DNA of 64,000 bases. It comes from Paenibacillus polygoni. GTDB lineage: Bacteria > Bacillota > Bacilli > Paenibacillales > Paenibacillaceae. Under the pieces are notes generated by a model, which was not told the origin of the DNA, did no database searches, and was given only the letters and a program-made list of their open reading frames with translations. How positions within the stretch are numbered: the stretch's first letter is position 1; every line of letters begins with the position of its first letter. The translations under genes were made by a program, and so were the position numbers. Positions 931 through 48,376 of this stretch are shown here, piece by piece. Location: NCBI RefSeq assembly GCF_030263935.1, contig NZ_CP127162.1, forward strand, positions 1,435,501 through 1,499,500. The letters are read 5' to 3'.

Positions 931-1884
931 TCATACCGAAGGAGAAGGAGAAGGAGAAGGAGTAACATGACGAAGGAGCCAATCGGCCACATGTTCTTCT
1001 ACTTCTTTGCGGTTAATTTCATGCAGCATTTCATGCCTGCCTTCTGGGTAAATTCGGTATTCCAAATCTCTTATCCCTAGTTCTTTATACATTTCCACTA
1101 GGTTCAGTACACCTTTGCCATACATACCCACAGGATCATTTCCTCCTGAGAAGATGTAGACAGGTTTATCTTTAGGTATATCAGCTAAATGATGTGGAAG
1201 GTGAATCTCCATAAGCAGTTCGAAAAAACCTTGGTAAAAGCGGGCAGTGCATAGTGAGCCGCATAAAGGATCATCTATAAACTTCCTTACTTCTTGCTCA
1301 TCTCTTGATAACCAGTCAAAAGGAGTAGCAGCAGGACGGAATGATCGGTTAAATCCACCGAACACGACGGCATTGAGAAGAAAACTTCGACGTTGTTTTC
1401 CCTGAATAAGACTTTGGAGTTGAGCAAGGAGTTGACCGAACTTCAGTAAACTCCTTTTTCCGTTGGAACCGGTTAGAATATAGCCTGCATACAGATCAGG
1501 ACCTGTATACATTACCTTTTGGGTAAGGAAGGAACCCATACTGTGTCCTAGTAGAAAAATAGGTAAGCCAGGATGCTCCTGTTGTATGAATTTTCCTAGT
1601 TCGCCCATATCTTTGACCATCCATTTAAAAGCATCTGGTCCGCCGTCTCCTAACATCCCTTGATCAAAGGCTGTCTTACCATGACCACGATGATCATTGG
1701 CATAAATGATGAACCCGTGATTAGTTAAGCATTCAGCCAGTTCTTTATAGCGTTTCGCTGTTTCGGACATCCCGTGTGCAACCTGGACAATTCCTTTGAT
1801 AGGCATTTCCTCTTCCGGAGCCCACCGATACACAAAGACATTGACCTCATCGCTGTCCAGCATTTGAAACGTATATTCCTGCAT
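931..1884 (-). CDS. Alpha/beta hydrolase (lysophospholipase / monoglyceride lipase type)
   Basis: This is a 317-residue serine hydrolase of the Hydrolase_4 family, whose members cleave lysophospholipids or monoacylglycerols. The HGMSE segment near residue 37 probably forms the oxyanion region. The nucleophile elbow GHSMG places Ser115, and the likely triad is completed by Asp250 (GGNDPVG) and His284 (EGRHEM). There is no signal peptide, so it should be cytosolic. GGAGGACTCACC directly before ATG 1884 is a strong ribosome site. The last residues form an (SP)n tail encoded by a GGAGAA hexamer tract, which looks like slippage expansion rather than a domain. It lies downstream of manA on the same strand with a gap of about 50 bases, so co-transcription is possible. 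Confidence 0.85.
   Translation of the reverse strand: MQEYTFQMLDSDEVNVFVYRWAPEEEMPIKGIVQVAHGMSETAKRYKELAECLTNHGFIIYANDHRGHGKTAFDQGMLGDGGPDAFKWMVKDMGELGKFIQQEHPGLPIFLLGHSMGSFLTQKVMYTGPDLYAGYILTGSNGKRSLLKFGQLLAQLQSLIQGKQRRSFLLNAVVFGGFNRSFRPAATPFDWLSRDEQEVRKFIDDPLCGSLCTARFYQGFFELLMEIHLPHHLADIPKDKPVYIFSGGNDPVGMYGKGVLNLVEMYKELGIRDLEYRIYPEGRHEMLHEINRKEVEEHVADWLLRHVTPSPSPSPSV
941..963. repeat. Short GGAGAA hexanucleotide tract in the 3' end of the hydrolase gene
   Basis: Nearly four GGAGAA units are read on the opposite strand as alternating Ser-Pro codons in the hydrolase C-terminus. The tract stays in frame for any unit number because the unit is six bases long. Confidence 0.85.
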
Positions 1885-42057: not shown

Positions 42058-44508
42058 GTGAGAGTATCTACAGAGTGGTTGTCTGATTATATATCTCTTG
42101 AAAATGTAGCTCCGGAAGATCTGGCTGAGCGTATTACAAGAGCGGGGATTGAAATTGATGCAGTGGAAAACCGTAACCAAGGAATTACGAAAGTTGTAGT
42201 CGGTTACGTGAAGAGTAAAGAAAAACATCCGGATGCGGATAAACTTAATATTTGTAAAGTCGATGCAGGTCTTGAAGAAGAACTTCAAATTGTATGCGGC
42301 GCGAAAAATGTAGATGCAGGTCAAAAAGTACCGGTAGCTATGATCGGAGCCAAACTTCCCGGCGGTCTTGATATCAAAAAAGCAAAACTGCGCGGGGTAT
42401 TATCCCAAGGGATGATTTGTTCTGCGAAAGAGCTGGGACTGAATGATAAATTGCTGCCAAAAGAACAACAAGAAGGCATTCTTGTTCTGCCTTCCGATCT
42501 TGAACCAGGTACGCCGATCGAACAAGTACTCGGTCTTAATGATCAAGTGCTCGAACTTGATTTGACACCAAACCGTTCTGACGCATTATCAATGATTGGT
42601 GCAGCTTACGAAGTGAGCGCGATTTTAGGCAGAGAAATTACTTTGCCAAAACCGGAAGAACAATTGACAGAATCGGGTTCCCCAGCAGCGGAGCATATCT
42701 CAGTAACGGTGAATGCGCCTGAGCTCTGCACTCACTACGCTGCTCGCTATATTACCGGAGTACAGATTGCTCCTTCTCCACTGTGGATGCAAAATCGTCT
42801 TATGGCAGCGGGTATTCGTCCAATTAATAATATTGTGGATATTACGAACTATGTCATGCTTGAATATGGACAGCCTTTACATGCATTCGATGCAGATAGC
42901 CTTGCTCACGGTAACATTGTTGTACGTACGGCAGCTGAAGGCGAAACAATGGTGACCCTTGACGGACAAGAACGCAAGTTGAAAGAAACGATGCTTCTTA
43001 TTACCGATGGTGAAAAACCGGTTGCAATCGCAGGGGTGATGGGCGGAGAAAACTCCGAAGTAACAAGTAGTACGGTTAACCTGTTGCTCGAATCTGCTAA
43101 ATTTGATGGAACAACGGTTCGTAAAACATCTCGTGATCTTGGGCTTCGCTCGGAATCTAGTCTTCGTTTTGAGAAAAATGTAGATCCGAACTCCGTCATT
43201 CCAGCACTGAACCGCGCAGCATCTCTGATCGCTCAGTATGCAGCGGGTACGGTACATCCAGGGGTTGTAGAATCTGCACCCGCTCAAACAGAAGAGCTTG
43301 TGATTTCTTTATCTACTGATAAAGTGAATCAATATCTGGGAACCCTGCTCACAACAGAAGAGATTAAAGCGATCTTCGATCGTCTTCATTTTGCATATGA
43401 GGTATCATCTGGTGATGAAATTAAAGTAACTGTTCCTACCCGCCGCGGTGATATTACCCGTGATGTAGATTTGATTGAAGAAGTAGCAAGGTTATATGGA
43501 TATGACCTTATTCCAACAACCGTAATTGAAGGTCCAACTACACCAGGTTCCTTCACGAAGGAACAAACGATTCGCCGTGCGCTTCGCGCTCTTCTTTCAA
43601 ATGGCGGTTATCATGAAGTGATCAGTTACTCTTTCGTAAATCCGGTGCGCGGTTCATTGTTCTCGGAACTTACCAAAGGCAGTCACTCTGTTAAACTGGC
43701 TATGCCGATGAGTGAAGAGCAAAGTGTGCTGAGAACTAGCATTTTGCCGCAGATGCTTTCCGCAGCAGAATACAACCGAAATCGTAAACAGGACAGTCTG
43801 GCACTTTTCGAGATCGGAAATGTGTTCTATACAGAAGAAGAAAGCTTGACAAAACAGCCGCGTGAAATTCCTGCACTATCCCTGCTTCTTAGTGGGAATC
43901 GTGTAGAAAAACAGTGGAATACGTCTGTACAAAAAGTAGACTTCTTTGATCTTAAGGGAGCTATTGAGACTATTTTTGCTTACCTTGGTCTTGATAAAAA
44001 CGTGTCCTATGTTGCAAATGAACCGAAGGACTTCCATCCGGGACGTTCAGCCTCTATTTATCTAAATGTAGAAGGTAAAGATGCGATCCTGATCGGAACA
44101 TTGGGGCAGGTTCATCCTGAAATTCAAAACAGCTATGATCTGGCGGATACGTATGTTGCCGAATTATCGCTTGAAGCAATCTATGAATATGCTAGACCTG
44201 CACTTGTGTATCGGGAGCTTCCTCGTTTCCCTGCTGTTGAACGTGATATTGCAGTTGTCGTTGAGGAGAATGTTGAAGCAGGAGCAATGCTTGCATCGAT
44301 TCGCGATTCGGCAGGAGAACTGTTACAATCAGTTCAGGTGTTCGATATCTTTACTGGAGAAAAACTAGGTCTTGGTAAGAAAAGTGTTGCTCTTGCCCTG
44401 ACATACCGTCACCATGAACATACGCTGACAGAAGAAGAAATTACAGCCGTTCATAGTAAAGTAGTAGAAGATCTTTCTACTCGTTTTGGAGCCGAACTCC
44501 GAAAATAA
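42058..44508 (+). CDS. pheT: Phenylalanyl-tRNA synthetase beta subunit
   Basis: The 816-residue beta subunit contains, in order, the B1 core start (MRVSTEWLSDYISLE), the OB-fold tRNA-binding domain (about 40-150), the B3/B4 editing domain with QPLHAFDAD near 275, the B5 domain with the DVDLIEEVARLYGYD motif near 472, and the C-terminal anticodon-binding FDX-ACB domain (about 720-815). It edits mischarged Tyr-tRNA-Phe and binds tRNA. It starts with GTG 42058, preceded by GAAGGAAG. Its length is normal for the family. It is the second gene of the T-box operon and is followed by a strong terminator. Confidence 0.97.
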   Translation: MRVSTEWLSDYISLENVAPEDLAERITRAGIEIDAVENRNQGITKVVVGYVKSKEKHPDADKLNICKVDAGLEEELQIVCGAKNVDAGQKVPVAMIGAKLPGGLDIKKAKLRGVLSQGMICSAKELGLNDKLLPKEQQEGILVLPSDLEPGTPIEQVLGLNDQVLELDLTPNRSDALSMIGAAYEVSAILGREITLPKPEEQLTESGSPAAEHISVTVNAPELCTHYAARYITGVQIAPSPLWMQNRLMAAGIRPINNIVDITNYVMLEYGQPLHAFDADSLAHGNIVVRTAAEGETMVTLDGQERKLKETMLLITDGEKPVAIAGVMGGENSEVTSSTVNLLLESAKFDGTTVRKTSRDLGLRSESSLRFEKNVDPNSVIPALNRAASLIAQYAAGTVHPGVVESAPAQTEELVISLSTDKVNQYLGTLLTTEEIKAIFDRLHFAYEVSSGDEIKVTVPTRRGDITRDVDLIEEVARLYGYDLIPTTVIEGPTTPGSFTKEQTIRRALRALLSNGGYHEVISYSFVNPVRGSLFSELTKGSHSVKLAMPMSEEQSVLRTSILPQMLSAAEYNRNRKQDSLALFEIGNVFYTEEESLTKQPREIPALSLLLSGNRVEKQWNTSVQKVDFFDLKGAIETIFAYLGLDKNVSYVANEPKDFHPGRSASIYLNVEGKDAILIGTLGQVHPEIQNSYDLADTYVAELSLEAIYEYARPALVYRELPRFPAVERDIAVVVEENVEAGAMLASIRDSAGELLQSVQVFDIFTGEKLGLGKKSVALALTYRHHEHTLTEEEITAVHSKVVEDLSTRFGAELRK

Positions 44509-44584
44509 GGATATGACGAGCTTGACGTGTAAGTTTCTATGTTTCTCCTTTATTTTTTGAGGAATTAATTGAAGGAATTGCTCT

Positions 44585-44630
44585 AAGTCACATCGAATCC
44601 TTAAAGATAAAGGCTTCGATGTGACTTTTT
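44585..44630 (+). terminator. Terminator of the pheS-pheT operon
   Basis: AAGTCACATCGAA (44585-44597) pairs perfectly with TTCGATGTGACTT (44615-44627), followed by T residues. Confidence 0.92.
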
Positions 44631-44721
44631 GTTTAGGGATCTTTATACTTACACTTATAACCTAATAAATAGGGTTACATCATCTAAGAATCAACATACA
44701 GACTTGAAGGAGGGCACAACT

Positions 44722-47700
44722 GTGACTACACCTGATCGTACACGCGTTACCGTAGAGATCTACGGAACTACTTATAAATTGGTCGGCAGCAGTGCCGAAT
44801 ATATGAAACAAGTGGCCAGTATGGTCGATGAAAGAATGAACACCATTTCTAAAAATCATGCCAGACTGGATACTCCAAGACTTGCAGTACTCACTGCAGT
44901 ACATATGGCAGAAGAGTCTCTTCAGGTTCAGCAAGTAAAGAATGAACTGAAGATGGTCACTGGTGAACGTACTCAGCTTGTTACTGAGCTGGATAAACTC
45001 AAAACGACTTATGAACAACAAAAAGAAAAATTAGAGCAGTTTGAAACGGCTGCGAAAGAGATGGAGAAAGAAAAGCAATCTGCTCAGCAAGCACTGGCTC
45101 AGCTTGAGAGTGTTCGTGCCGAAGAACAAAAAGCACTCAAAGCTCAGCTTGAAGAAGCTCTTGCGAAGGTTTCACTTCGGGAGGGAGAATTAAAACAGGC
45201 GAAGCAAAATAATACGGAACTCTCTACTCGTATGCAGCAGAACGATAAAAAGTGGCAGCAACAATTATCGGACAAACAAAAAGAGCATACGGCAGCGCTT
45301 GAGGCTCGGCGTAAGGAAGTGCTGGCTGAAGCAGAGCAAAAGCAGAAGAAACTTCAAGAAGAAGCAGATCAAAAGCAAAGGAAACTTCAAGAAGAAGCAG
45401 ACGCAAAAGTGAAAGAGCTGAATGTACTCCTGAGTCAGCGTTCGGCTGAACTAAATAAAGTGGTTCAAGAACGTAAAACACTTGAAACTAAATTCCAGAC
45501 CGATCAACAGAATTGGGAAAAACAACTTAAGGCAAACAAAGAACATTGGGAGAAACAGCTCCAAACAGATAAACAAAATTGGGATAAAGAACTTCAAATT
45601 AAACTTAAAAACCTTACGGAGCAACACCAGCGTAAACAGCAGGAACTTGAGAACAATTGGCAACAATTGAAAAAAGACCTTGAGAAGAAATTGGAACGTA
45701 AGGAACAGGAACGTGCGGCTGCAGATCAAGCGCTGCAAGATTATAAACAGCAAGCTGCAGAAGAATTACAAACCATGCAGGAACTGGCTGACACCGAAAT
45801 TCGTGAAGCTCGCACCGCAGCTGACGAACAGATTCGCCTTGCAGAAGCACAGCTGCAATCGAAGCTTGAACAATGGCAAGAACAGCATGCGCTTGATATC
45901 GAATCCATCAAAGCAGAGGCTCAGGCAGAAGCAGAGAAGAGTATTAATGAAGTTATGGAAATGCTCACGGAGACCGAAGAAAAGCATGCAAATGTAATTT
46001 CATCACTTAAAGCAGATGCGCTAGAGCGTACAGAACAGCTGGAACATCGTCTTCAACAAGCAAATGATGATCTGGAAGCAGAACGCGAAAGATCAGAAGA
46101 ACAGCTTCAAGAATTGAAGAAGGAAATGGAAGCTAAAGTGCAAGAGGCTGAGCGCCTTGCGTTGGAAGAAGCAGAGAAAGCCGAGACAGAAGCGTATGAA
46201 CTGTACAAAACAGAACTGAATAACACGAAACAGCAAATGATGGCTGATCATGATAAGAAAGAGCAGAAACTTCTTCAAGAATTGGCTCAATTGCAGGAGA
46301 GTCTCGAAAACGAGCGAAAAGAAGCGAGTTTACAGCTTGAAGAAGCGATGAGGGTACTATCTGAAGAAGAAGAAGGGCGCAAACAATTGACGGCTGTATT
46401 AGAAGAGGAGAAGGCTCGAATCCAGAAACTTGAATCTTTGAATGTTGCTGCGGAAGAGAACATTTCAAAACATACGCGCCGAATACAGGAACTTGAACAA
46501 CAGATTACGGAAACCAAAGAAAACAGTGTTGCTCTGCAGAGAAAGCTTCATGCAGCTGAACAAGATCGTTCGAAAGCACAGGAAAGAATAGAAGAGCTGA
46601 AACAAAAAGTACAACAAGCAGCTGAAAGGGAAACAGCGAGTACTGCGCTCATCCGTAAATTGCAGGAGCAACAAGCGACTAGCCAGCAGGAATTGAATAA
46701 AATGAAACAAGCGGGAGTCAAAGCGGAAGAGGAACAGCGCCGATTGCAAAAAGTACTCGAACAAGCTCATGCGGCAACCCGTAAATTACAAAGTGAAATT
46801 GCAACACTTACGGAAAGTGAAAAAAATTGGAGAATCATTGCGGAACAAAGAAAACAGGAGATTAGTCAGCTGGAGAATGACGTCTTAGAAAGTGCAGAGC
46901 AATTGGAGTCTGCAGAAGCGCGTCATCGCGAATTACAGCAGAAGCTGAATAGCGCTCAAGAGGAAGCACAAAAAGCGCAACAGCAGGCCGATCATCTTAG
47001 AGAACAGTTGTCTGTTCTTGACGGTAAGTATGCTGAACTGAATGATCAATTTGAATCTTCTGTAGAAGAGGCTCAGCAGCATCTTCAAATGTCAGAGCAA
47101 TACGAACAAGAGTTGCAGCGGCTTCGTAAAGATCTAAATATTCGTGAAGCTGAACTGAAAGATACCAAAGAAGAAGTGAATAATACGCAGTCTCTGCTCA
47201 ATAAAGCTGAAGAAGAAGCGATTGAATGGCAATTAAGATGTGAAGAGCTTACAGAAGCGGAGTCCAAGCTTCAGCAGGAACGCAAACAATTGGAAGAGGA
47301 ACAGAAACAACTTCGCAGTCAACTTAGAGATTGGGCTGAGAAAGAACAGGAATGGACAAATCAGCAGGAGCGAATGGATCAAGAGAATAAGGAACTTCAG
47401 CGCGAATATCAGTATCTCATGAACCAACAAGCTGATTGGGAAGCAAATCGCAAGCATCTAGAGGAAGAAGTGAAGAGCTGGCAGAAACAAATTGCAGCTG
47501 GTAATGATAGATTGCTTGAATTATCCTATGAGAAAAATGAAGCGATCTCTCGTTCTTCTTCACTCGAAAGCGATAAAAAAGCACTTGAAACCGAACTTCA
47601 GGAAATTATGGAGCGTTATGAAATAACCGCACACCAGTTGAGGCTCCTAGAAGTTGAACGTGAAATGCATCAAGATAAATCAGAAGATTTGGCGAGTGAA

Positions 47701-47784
47701 TACCGTAAACTGCAAGAAGAGTATGCTAAACTCCAAACGGAGTATAATGAATGGATTGAACTGATTGAGCAGGATCAAAACTAA
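44722..47784 (+). CDS. zapA: Giant ZapA: cell-division ZapA domain fused to a very long coiled coil
   Basis: Residues 1-75 are a ZapA domain (TRVTVEIYGTTYKLVGSS, EYMKQVASMVDERM, LDTPRLAVLTAVHMAEESL). ZapA promotes lateral association of FtsZ filaments at the division septum and is normally about 85-110 residues. Here the frame runs on without interruption for about 950 more residues of Glu/Lys/Gln/Ala-rich coiled coil, 1020 in total. Two 11-residue repeat blocks are visible: KLQEEAD units near residue 210-225, and tryptophans at 265, 276 and 287. GTG 44722 is chosen because AAGGAGGG precedes it and the ZapA domain begins there. It sits after pheT, its usual place in Bacilli. I infer a septal scaffold. 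A fused gene error seems unlikely because no frameshift signs occur. Confidence 0.88.
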   Translation: MTTPDRTRVTVEIYGTTYKLVGSSAEYMKQVASMVDERMNTISKNHARLDTPRLAVLTAVHMAEESLQVQQVKNELKMVTGERTQLVTELDKLKTTYEQQKEKLEQFETAAKEMEKEKQSAQQALAQLESVRAEEQKALKAQLEEALAKVSLREGELKQAKQNNTELSTRMQQNDKKWQQQLSDKQKEHTAALEARRKEVLAEAEQKQKKLQEEADQKQRKLQEEADAKVKELNVLLSQRSAELNKVVQERKTLETKFQTDQQNWEKQLKANKEHWEKQLQTDKQNWDKELQIKLKNLTEQHQRKQQELENNWQQLKKDLEKKLERKEQERAAADQALQDYKQQAAEELQTMQELADTEIREARTAADEQIRLAEAQLQSKLEQWQEQHALDIESIKAEAQAEAEKSINEVMEMLTETEEKHANVISSLKADALERTEQLEHRLQQANDDLEAERERSEEQLQELKKEMEAKVQEAERLALEEAEKAETEAYELYKTELNNTKQQMMADHDKKEQKLLQELAQLQESLENERKEASLQLEEAMRVLSEEEEGRKQLTAVLEEEKARIQKLESLNVAAEENISKHTRRIQELEQQITETKENSVALQRKLHAAEQDRSKAQERIEELKQKVQQAAERETASTALIRKLQEQQATSQQELNKMKQAGVKAEEEQRRLQKVLEQAHAATRKLQSEIATLTESEKNWRIIAEQRKQEISQLENDVLESAEQLESAEARHRELQQKLNSAQEEAQKAQQQADHLREQLSVLDGKYAELNDQFESSVEEAQQHLQMSEQYEQELQRLRKDLNIREAELKDTKEEVNNTQSLLNKAEEEAIEWQLRCEELTEAESKLQQERKQLEEEQKQLRSQLRDWAEKEQEWTNQQERMDQENKELQREYQYLMNQQADWEANRKHLEEEVKSWQKQIAAGNDRLLELSYEKNEAISRSSSLESDKKALETELQEIMERYEITAHQLRLLEVEREMHQDKSEDLASEYRKLQEEYAKLQTEYNEWIELIEQDQN
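45348..45401 (+). repeat. 33-bp direct repeat in the ZapA coiled coil
   Basis: A nearly identical 21-base stretch coding KLQEEAD occurs at 45348-45368 and 45381-45401, one 11-codon unit apart. It is recent enough for the DNA, not just the protein, to match. Confidence 0.8.
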
Positions 47785-47827
47785 TGCAGCTTTTATTCAC
47801 TAGAAGAAGCATTGTATAATTCATTGT

Positions 47828-47873
47828 AAAAGACCCTCGTGCCAGGCTAGTCAGCCTTGCGCGAGGGTCTTTT
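47828..47873. terminator. Bidirectional terminator between zapA and the cupredoxin gene
   Basis: AAAAGACCCTCG (47828-47839) pairs with CGAGGGTCTTTT (47862-47873), with A- and T-tracts on both sides. Confidence 0.9.
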
Positions 47874-47879
47874 GTATTG

Positions 47880-48263
47880 CTATTCTTCCACAATAATTTT
47901 AGATATCATTGAGGAGTGACCTTTACCGCAGAAAATAGAACAGGCAACTTCAAATTCGCCAGTCTCTTTCGGGGTAATCACAGTAGAACTCTCTTTCGTG
48001 TCGAGCTGCACGCCGAGTCCTGGTACAATAATTCCATGGTTCCCTTCTACGTTTTCAAAAACAATACGAACGGGAACTCCTTTTTTTATACGGTATTCAG
48101 GTTGATCAAATTCGTAATTTGTTGCTTTAATAGTAATTTCTTCACTTGCTGCCACATCTGGTTCCGTAATTCCGCTGTCTGAACCCGATTTCGAGTCTTG
48201 ACCGCATGCAGCAAGTACGAATAGTAACATTGCACTGAGAAGTAGTACGATTGCTTTTTTCAA
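47880..48263 (-). CDS. Lipoprotein with stand-alone CuA-type cupredoxin domain
   Basis: This 127-residue lipoprotein starts with KKAIVLLLSAMLLFVLAAC (lipobox cysteine about residue 20). A cupredoxin fold follows, with GNHGIIVPGLGVQLD and then ACSIFCGKGHSSM. The spacing Cx3Cx3HxxM plus the upstream His is the complete ligand set of the binuclear CuA centre of cytochrome oxidase subunit II, including the GLGVQLD region that follows the first His. There are no membrane helices of a true CoxB and no oxidase genes nearby. It may carry electrons or copper at the outer face of the membrane. I chose TTG 48263 because GGGAGGTTC lies upstream and the signal peptide is then correct; an upstream ATG lacks a ribosome site. 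Confidence 0.87.
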   Translation of the reverse strand: MKKAIVLLLSAMLLFVLAACGQDSKSGSDSGITEPDVAASEEITIKATNYEFDQPEYRIKKGVPVRIVFENVEGNHGIIVPGLGVQLDTKESSTVITPKETGEFEVACSIFCGKGHSSMISKIIVEE

Positions 48264-48376
48264 GAGTGAGAACCTCCCATAAAAATATTTTAGGTACATA
48301 CATCTTTATGATACCGTAGTTCTTCTCGGGGTGAACGTTCCAATTACGTCATATTTTTGAATTATCGAACAATAAA

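Follow-up and report, generated by a model that had tools for sequence, protein, structure and literature searches.

ZapA, as described in the accessible text of two reports, is a dumbbell-shaped tetramer with FtsZ-binding domains at both ends (PMC12216130; PMC7246612). In the E. coli and Klebsiella proteins, the coil makes the tetramer, and the I83E substitution in this coil yields dimers that are sparse on FtsZ filaments and fail to substitute for ZapA in vivo (PMC12216130; PMC7246612). The B. subtilis ZapA, according to the available part of a third report, is a 9-kDa protein that promotes the assembly and lateral association of FtsZ (PMC6126333). Within the window, the 64,000-nucleotide stretch of Paenibacillus polygoni DNA analysed here, we observe a zapA gene (44722..47784, plus strand) whose product resembles these proteins (NF010724/PF05164; structures 2mmv, 9isj, and 4p1m) in the sequence and fold of its head, in its locus after pheT, and in a tail-like C-terminus, but differs from them in having ~915 coil residues between head and tip, in scoring below the cut-off of NF010724, and in carrying a tryptophan in the tip. 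As read from the sequence, the frame starts with GTG, remains stop-free over 1020 residues that include only two prolines, and is preceded, 8 bases upstream of the GTG, by the ribosome-binding site AAGGAGG (44707..44713, plus strand); both its start and its end are conserved in relatives.

The locus is arranged in the order pheT, zapA, two small minus-strand genes, and mutS2, with pheT (42058-44508) directly 5' of zapA, the classical place that a first-pass annotation of this DNA had assigned to the gene. pheT adjoins zapA in 60/60 long loci and in 19/20 short loci of neighbouring families, while mutS2 is found downstream, within the stretch fetched, in 55/60 and 11/20 of these loci, respectively. 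By position (pheT-zapA ... mutS2), the long zapA is orthologous to the short zapA of other orders. Terminator-like hairpins, judged by eye, lie on both sides of the gene: one between pheT and zapA that is followed by a T-run (44580..44640, plus strand; z -5.85) and one 3' of zapA (47825..47880, plus strand; z -7.77). Because both hairpins are strong, the long zapA is probably transcribed alone, as its own transcription unit; a simple promoter and terminator scan returned no more hits than shuffled sequence and listed neither hairpin. The two minus-strand genes encode a membrane protein of the Phage_holin_4_2 family (PF04020; 48436-48852), which sits between zapA and mutS2 and occurs with both long and short zapA, and a cupredoxin-like lipoprotein with weak CoxB and NosZ-type matches (47880-48299). 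The holin-type gene and mutS2 are found together downstream, within the stretch fetched, in 10/20 neighbouring short-zapA loci. The lipoprotein gene lies near zapA in 45/60 long loci. None of the 20 short-zapA loci of neighbouring families has it at the corresponding position; their sole match (L195) is a longer plus-strand frame.

The ZapA head occupies residues 1-80 (44722..44961, plus strand), with a beta-beta-alpha-alpha arrangement whose last helix continues into the rod. The first-pass annotation had recognised a ZapA domain at the N-terminus, and this is borne out by profile searches: the NCBIfam ZapA model NF010724 matches residues 3-78 with an E-value of 6.4e-17 (61 bits, under the curated cut-off of 80), and in a genome search, Pfam PF05164 matches the head with an E-value of 7.5e-15 (57.3 bits, above the cut-off of 23.8). 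A Pfam search of the full-length 1020-aa protein at 1e-3 listed nothing. The head can be aligned to 50 short ZapAs from outside the order, which were read by script and have lengths of about 82-109 aa (20 of them counted from just before the head), and it is the sole ZapA-type match in its own genome. In its head domain, its orthologous locus, its status as the only ZapA of the genome, and a C-terminal tail helix, the protein agrees with the family, and it departs from the family in lacking small size and a short coil (about 82-109 aa, versus 1020 aa here). Judging from sequence, it is most likely the ordinary zapA product of its lineage.

The AlphaFold model of the full protein is of low confidence (mean pLDDT 64.4, 22 sequences); it places strands at residues 7-13 and 16-22 and helices at 25-45 and 52-223, and is mostly helical from residue 52 onward with four breaks. 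The model of a 149-aa relative (L150; mean pLDDT 84.9, 13 sequences) shows a ZapA head, a second helix at 53-108, and a separate tip helix at 116-148. With this shorter model as the query, the top Foldseek match is Geobacillus stearothermophilus ZapA (2mmv; E-value 2.5e-5, the sole match under 0.001), followed by the Klebsiella (9isj; 9.7e-3) and E. coli (4p1m; 5.3e-2) proteins.

Between head and tip lies a coiled-coil rod of ~915 residues (about residues 81-997; 44962..47712, plus strand), which is delimited by its periodicity and by lengths in relatives and varies in length between species. The coiled coil had been proposed to run through to the end of the frame, and we find a spectral power of 4.47 at a period of 3.545 residues, compared with 1.34 +/- 0.18 in shuffled sequences. 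Windows within residues 131-550 peak at 3.58-3.71, which is hendecad-like, those within residues 516-970 peak at 3.48-3.52, as expected of heptads, and in the final window (936-1005) only a weak peak, at 3.84, is seen. A coiled coil rises 0.1485 nm per residue, and the rod would be ~136 nm long if all ~915 residues are coiled coil.

Long ZapAs are the rule among relatives. A ZapA match is present in 60/60 genomes of the genus, the present one included, and a search across the family finds one match in each of 148/148 genomes (19 genera), with open frames of at least 275 and up to 1616 codons. In the order Paenibacillales, 244/246 genomes have a match, some frames being cut by contig ends among the places listed. 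Across the class, 132/141 genomes match; 11 of these are from Paenibacillaceae, and the other 121 have frames of 74-258 codons. The open-frame column overcounts one member (G015; 1561 versus 686 when read), so lengths that rest on this column, as in much of the family, order, and class surveys, are approximate. We therefore read by script 61 long proteins, namely that of the window and those of 60 fetched loci covering genera and families, with none dropped, and find lengths of 149-1892 aa; compared with the 50 short ZapAs, the 1020-aa protein has roughly ten times the family length, as had been claimed for it. Two further proteins from the order are shorter still, at about 123 aa (G466) and 138 aa (G481). 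In one genome of the genus (G059; locus L217), zapA is spread over three frames, of 369, 511, and 157 codons.

On a pheT tree inferred by a quick method from 78 of 81 loci, those with a frame over 600 aa (L149, L168, and L194 were dropped), the long-ZapA loci form one clade with a support of 99, consistent with one change. Two deep branches hold forms of 160 and 220 aa, the second being a long branch whose place is unsure. The family itself is already known in that some public names say ZapA: a database search with the head, confined to proteins 0.55 to 1.75 times the query length, returned six proteins of 621-674 aa, and the three named ones are from Paenibacillus and annotated as ZapA or hypothetical. 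A search with the last 61 residues found none among targets in the same range of relative lengths. No description of a long ZapA, nor any record of one with a known function, was found in the open-access literature searched, as far as the accessible text of that literature goes.

The C-terminal tip comprises residues 998-1017 (47713..47772, plus strand) and resembles the tail of short ZapAs by both tip and tail profiles. It is a variant of a 20-residue consensus, QEEYAKLQTEYNEWIELIEQ, and such variants stand at the end of 61/61 long proteins read. All 61 contain the pattern [NDH]EW within their last 45 residues, which was used to line them up, and an L, two E residues, and the W of the tip are identical throughout. 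The N and W are specific to the order, with NEW occurring where neighbours show EEL or similar. In 22 aligned long proteins, 15 of the 25 invariant columns fall in residues 1-60, one is at E135, and nine are in the last 24 residues; the conserved parts of the long ZapA are its head and its tip. The same ending is found in 30 loci of the genus (L002-L031, with L002 being the present genome and several also among the 61). A tip profile (A3) built from 23 of these endings matches 244/246 genomes of the order, of which 240 have a single match and 4 have two, and it matches none of 130 genomes from elsewhere in the class. The two misses are a 68% complete genome (G605) and a 99% complete genome of family f53 (G466). 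The latter genome is 2.5 Mb in size, and its ZapA of about 123 aa (L222) has a degenerate tip.

The tails of short ZapAs from neighbouring families are of the type ADEYFRLKEEYDELVKLLEE. With a profile built from 20 of these tails, the terminal 35 residues outscore all rod windows in 59/61 long proteins; the exceptions are L127 and L145, where the tip is not the best window. In L141, L144, and L146, the highest-scoring terminal window sits further upstream than the tip. Among 39,356 rod windows, none reaches the median tip score. Since 200 column-permuted tail profiles, with a mean of 7.2, reach at most 51 of 61, the signal is partly, but not entirely, one of composition. A wider profile with 30 Bacillus-type ZapAs added is no better than its own permuted control (tip best in 53/61; permuted mean 9.6, maximum 54). 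In the reverse search, the best match of the tip profile is exactly the tail in 20/20 neighbouring short ZapAs, with scores of -21.1 to 26.6 (median 6.3). Thirteen of these 20 exceed 3.2, the best score among 1172 other frames, and seven fall under it, while rods score at most 1.0. Among the Bacillus-type ZapAs, the same profile reaches the tail in 15/30. The tip is most likely the ancestral ZapA tail relocated to the far end of the protein. The helix adjoining the head is also tail-like in several members (e.g., L142, L150, L151, L160, L165, and L166), a pattern more in keeping with a duplicated tail and growth between its two copies than with a simple insertion. The rod would have grown inside the ancestral tail or behind its duplicate, with duplication being favoured. 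The first-pass annotation had described a ZapA domain fused to a coiled coil; fusion to an unrelated coil was rejected, since the distal end is similar to the tail of ZapA itself, and the gene looks stretched from within. What is new here is that the long ZapA is most likely not a head with an arbitrary coil, but a rod with a ZapA tail at its tip.

Taken with the literature on the ZapA tetramer and the I83E variant, this architecture can be read as a long-reach crosslinker made of a head dimer, a spacer, and a joining tip. The head would dimerise and bind FtsZ, and the rod, which we take to be parallel and two-stranded, would act as a spacer that largely tolerates changes in length and sequence provided that it stays a coil. 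The tip would join two dimers, much as the coil of E. coli ZapA does; with the rods touching close to their tips, or else overlapping, the two sets of heads would be held tens to hundreds of nanometres apart. That the long ZapA is a zapA stretched from within that crosslinks FtsZ at long reach, with the tip joining dimers, is the reading that we prefer, although we hold it at about even confidence. If it is correct, the distance at which the long ZapA holds division filaments may greatly exceed the reach of ordinary ZapA.

The conservation of the tip appears to exceed what a coil-joining element needs, and a specific partner would fit it equally well. The long ZapA may then be an adaptor, with its head on FtsZ and its tip on a lineage-specific division, nucleoid, or cell-wall factor, that tethers the Z-ring. 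The order-specific N and W of the tip, its four residues identical in 61/61 proteins, and the concentration of nearly all invariant columns in tip and head would all suit such a role, as would the precedent of E. coli, where, according to the accessible text of PMC7246612, ZapA forms part of a chain that leads to the chromosome. The long ZapA resembles the ZapA-ZapB-MatP system of E. coli, by analogy only, in that a ZapA head on FtsZ is combined with a coiled coil reaching outward; it differs in being one polypeptide, with no match to ZapB (PF06005) in the 1020-aa protein at 1e-3 and no known chromosome partner. Against an adaptor stand the apparent derivation of the tip from a normal ZapA tail, the fact that no candidate partner surfaced, if only in an unsystematic survey, and the net charges of the rod (-60) and tip (-5), since such acidity speaks against binding to DNA or membrane. 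The earlier suggestion that the protein tethers the Z-ring to membrane or nucleoid likewise finds no support in the sequence. On balance, we consider an adaptor possible but unlikely.

Sister loci on the pheT tree encode proteins of widely different lengths (246/1323, 251/621, and 924/1729 aa, with supports of 91, 96, and 94, respectively), and the rod itself contains two 33-bp (11-residue) tandem repeats, of 2.7 copies (45328..45416, plus strand) and 3.0 copies (45494..45593, plus strand). At residue 209, the site of the first repeat, the near relatives L003, L004, and L005 lack exactly 11 residues. Growth of the rod is thus visible in the DNA. The uneven lengths of sister loci, the 33-bp tandem units, and this single 11-residue step would all be expected if the rod were nearly neutral ballast, lengthened by tandem duplication and selected only to remain a soluble coil while the head works as usual. 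However, the rod is under purifying selection (dN/dS of 0.146, 0.159, and 0.097 in three pairwise comparisons to relatives, the third with a dS of 1.7, near saturation), no member of the order was read back at 82-109 aa, the shortest being about 123 aa (L222), and a tip kept in 244/246 genomes would be needless; we therefore regard ballast as improbable. Among 37 distinct proteins of the genus, 179 alignments with at least 60% identity contain 280 gaps, most commonly of 4 (120), 1 (37), 11 (23), and 2 (21) residues and of 29, 33, and 111 residues (19 each). Several of these lengths are near multiples of the helix phase, but 1, 2, and 111 are not, and gaps are also shared by descent and in some cases located after the tip; we do not take them as proof of phase-keeping indels.

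EzrA (PF06160) is likewise a long helical division protein of related bacteria, and EzrA-like properties had been ascribed to the present protein; its N-terminus is instead a ZapA head, and it has neither a match to PF06160 at 1e-3 nor a visible membrane anchor. The PF06160 screen scored part of its candidates, and among the 11 of 25 scored in the present genome, none matches at 1e-3, while 89/141 genomes of the class have a match above the cut-off. This seeming absence raises the possibility that the long ZapA replaces EzrA, which we consider very improbable. In the order, 14/109 genomes do match PF06160 above the cut-off (best 71.9 bits), genomes of other families without an EzrA match have short ZapAs (e.g., G197 of family f6, G198 of f7, G206 of f15, G208 of f17, and G209 of f18), and a membrane anchor is not visible in the long ZapA. 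EzrA matches within the order are weak. The best, in L116 (997-3690, minus strand), appears by eye to be a TPM-type protein with a signal peptide and a helical C-terminal half, and another, in L117 (1066-2721, plus strand), is a 551-aa membrane-anchored helical protein. The likeness to SMC (TIGR02168) that had also been proposed comes down to coil stretches: only coil positions of the model are matched (47.7 bits versus a cut-off of 567.35), and the long ZapA has no ATPase head or hinge. We set aside both ZapB and SMC likeness as generic coil scores. An assembly or frame artefact, for which the gene in three frames in one genome of the genus (G059) might be cited, is practically negligible, as the gene is intact in a single-contig genome, the rod is under purifying selection, and each of the 61 long proteins, the present one included, is read in one frame with no stop or break after the ZapA domain.

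Elongated ZapAs also occur outside the order, in two other families of the class. In family f19, where L193 and L215 encode proteins of 94-95 residues, L209 encodes a coil-bearing ZapA of 242 aa. The end of L209, ELRIEYEDFLKLLDD, is its best match to the tail profile (5.4), with a proximal copy scoring 5.1. Its coil also contains a weak match to ZapB (PF06005; 1.2e-4, below the cut-off). Family f25 includes L212 (104 residues) and L213 (99 residues), both with the tail LDEVYELLEEET, as well as three elongated members, L214, L211, and L210, which measure 133, 175, and 219 residues from a point just ahead of the head. Near their ends, these carry IDALYALLDEQSA, RELYLLLDEKTA, and RDELFLLLDETSA, respectively, the likeness to the tail being one seen by eye; the general tail profile does not pick the ends of these three proteins. 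L210 also contains repeated RRERDEL heptads. Elongation in f19 and f25 is apparently independent, and the tail seems to be kept at the end in both.

A broader form of the crosslinker reading can be put forward tentatively, with the balance somewhat against it: the whole order would build its Z-ring with a ZapA whose heads sit on FtsZ and whose tips meet, so that neighbouring filaments or ring layers could be as much as a few hundred nanometres from each other. Short coil units duplicated in tandem would determine the spacer length, and the same stretching, with the tail kept at the end, would have arisen, apparently, at least three times. Nature has varied the spacer more than 10-fold with both ends kept, which bears on how ZapA crosslink spacing affects Z-ring order and constriction and on whether the Z-ring needs a fixed distance between filaments. 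If the crosslinker reading is true, the order, whose ZapAs span about 123 to 1892 aa, is a natural length series of one crosslinker. The family also illustrates how a protein that is small and oligomeric may turn into a giant rod while retaining its ends.

In a search of the phylum, the frames listed outside the order included those of 666 (G630 and G746), 354 (G669), 286 (G650), 267 (G623), 266 (G707), and 205 (G681) codons, and these were rejected as long coiled-coil ZapAs. That of G630 is a ZapA of ~105 codons followed by a stop and then PolX, and G746 has a 95-residue stretch of the same kind. The tails of G669, G623, and G707 are rich in Gly, Pro, and Ala and form no coils, the protein of G650 is about 90 aa, and that of G681 is doubtful and rich in Pro and Ser. 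In another family of the phylum, L204-L206 encode ZapAs with long Gly/Pro/Ala-rich C-terminal tails.
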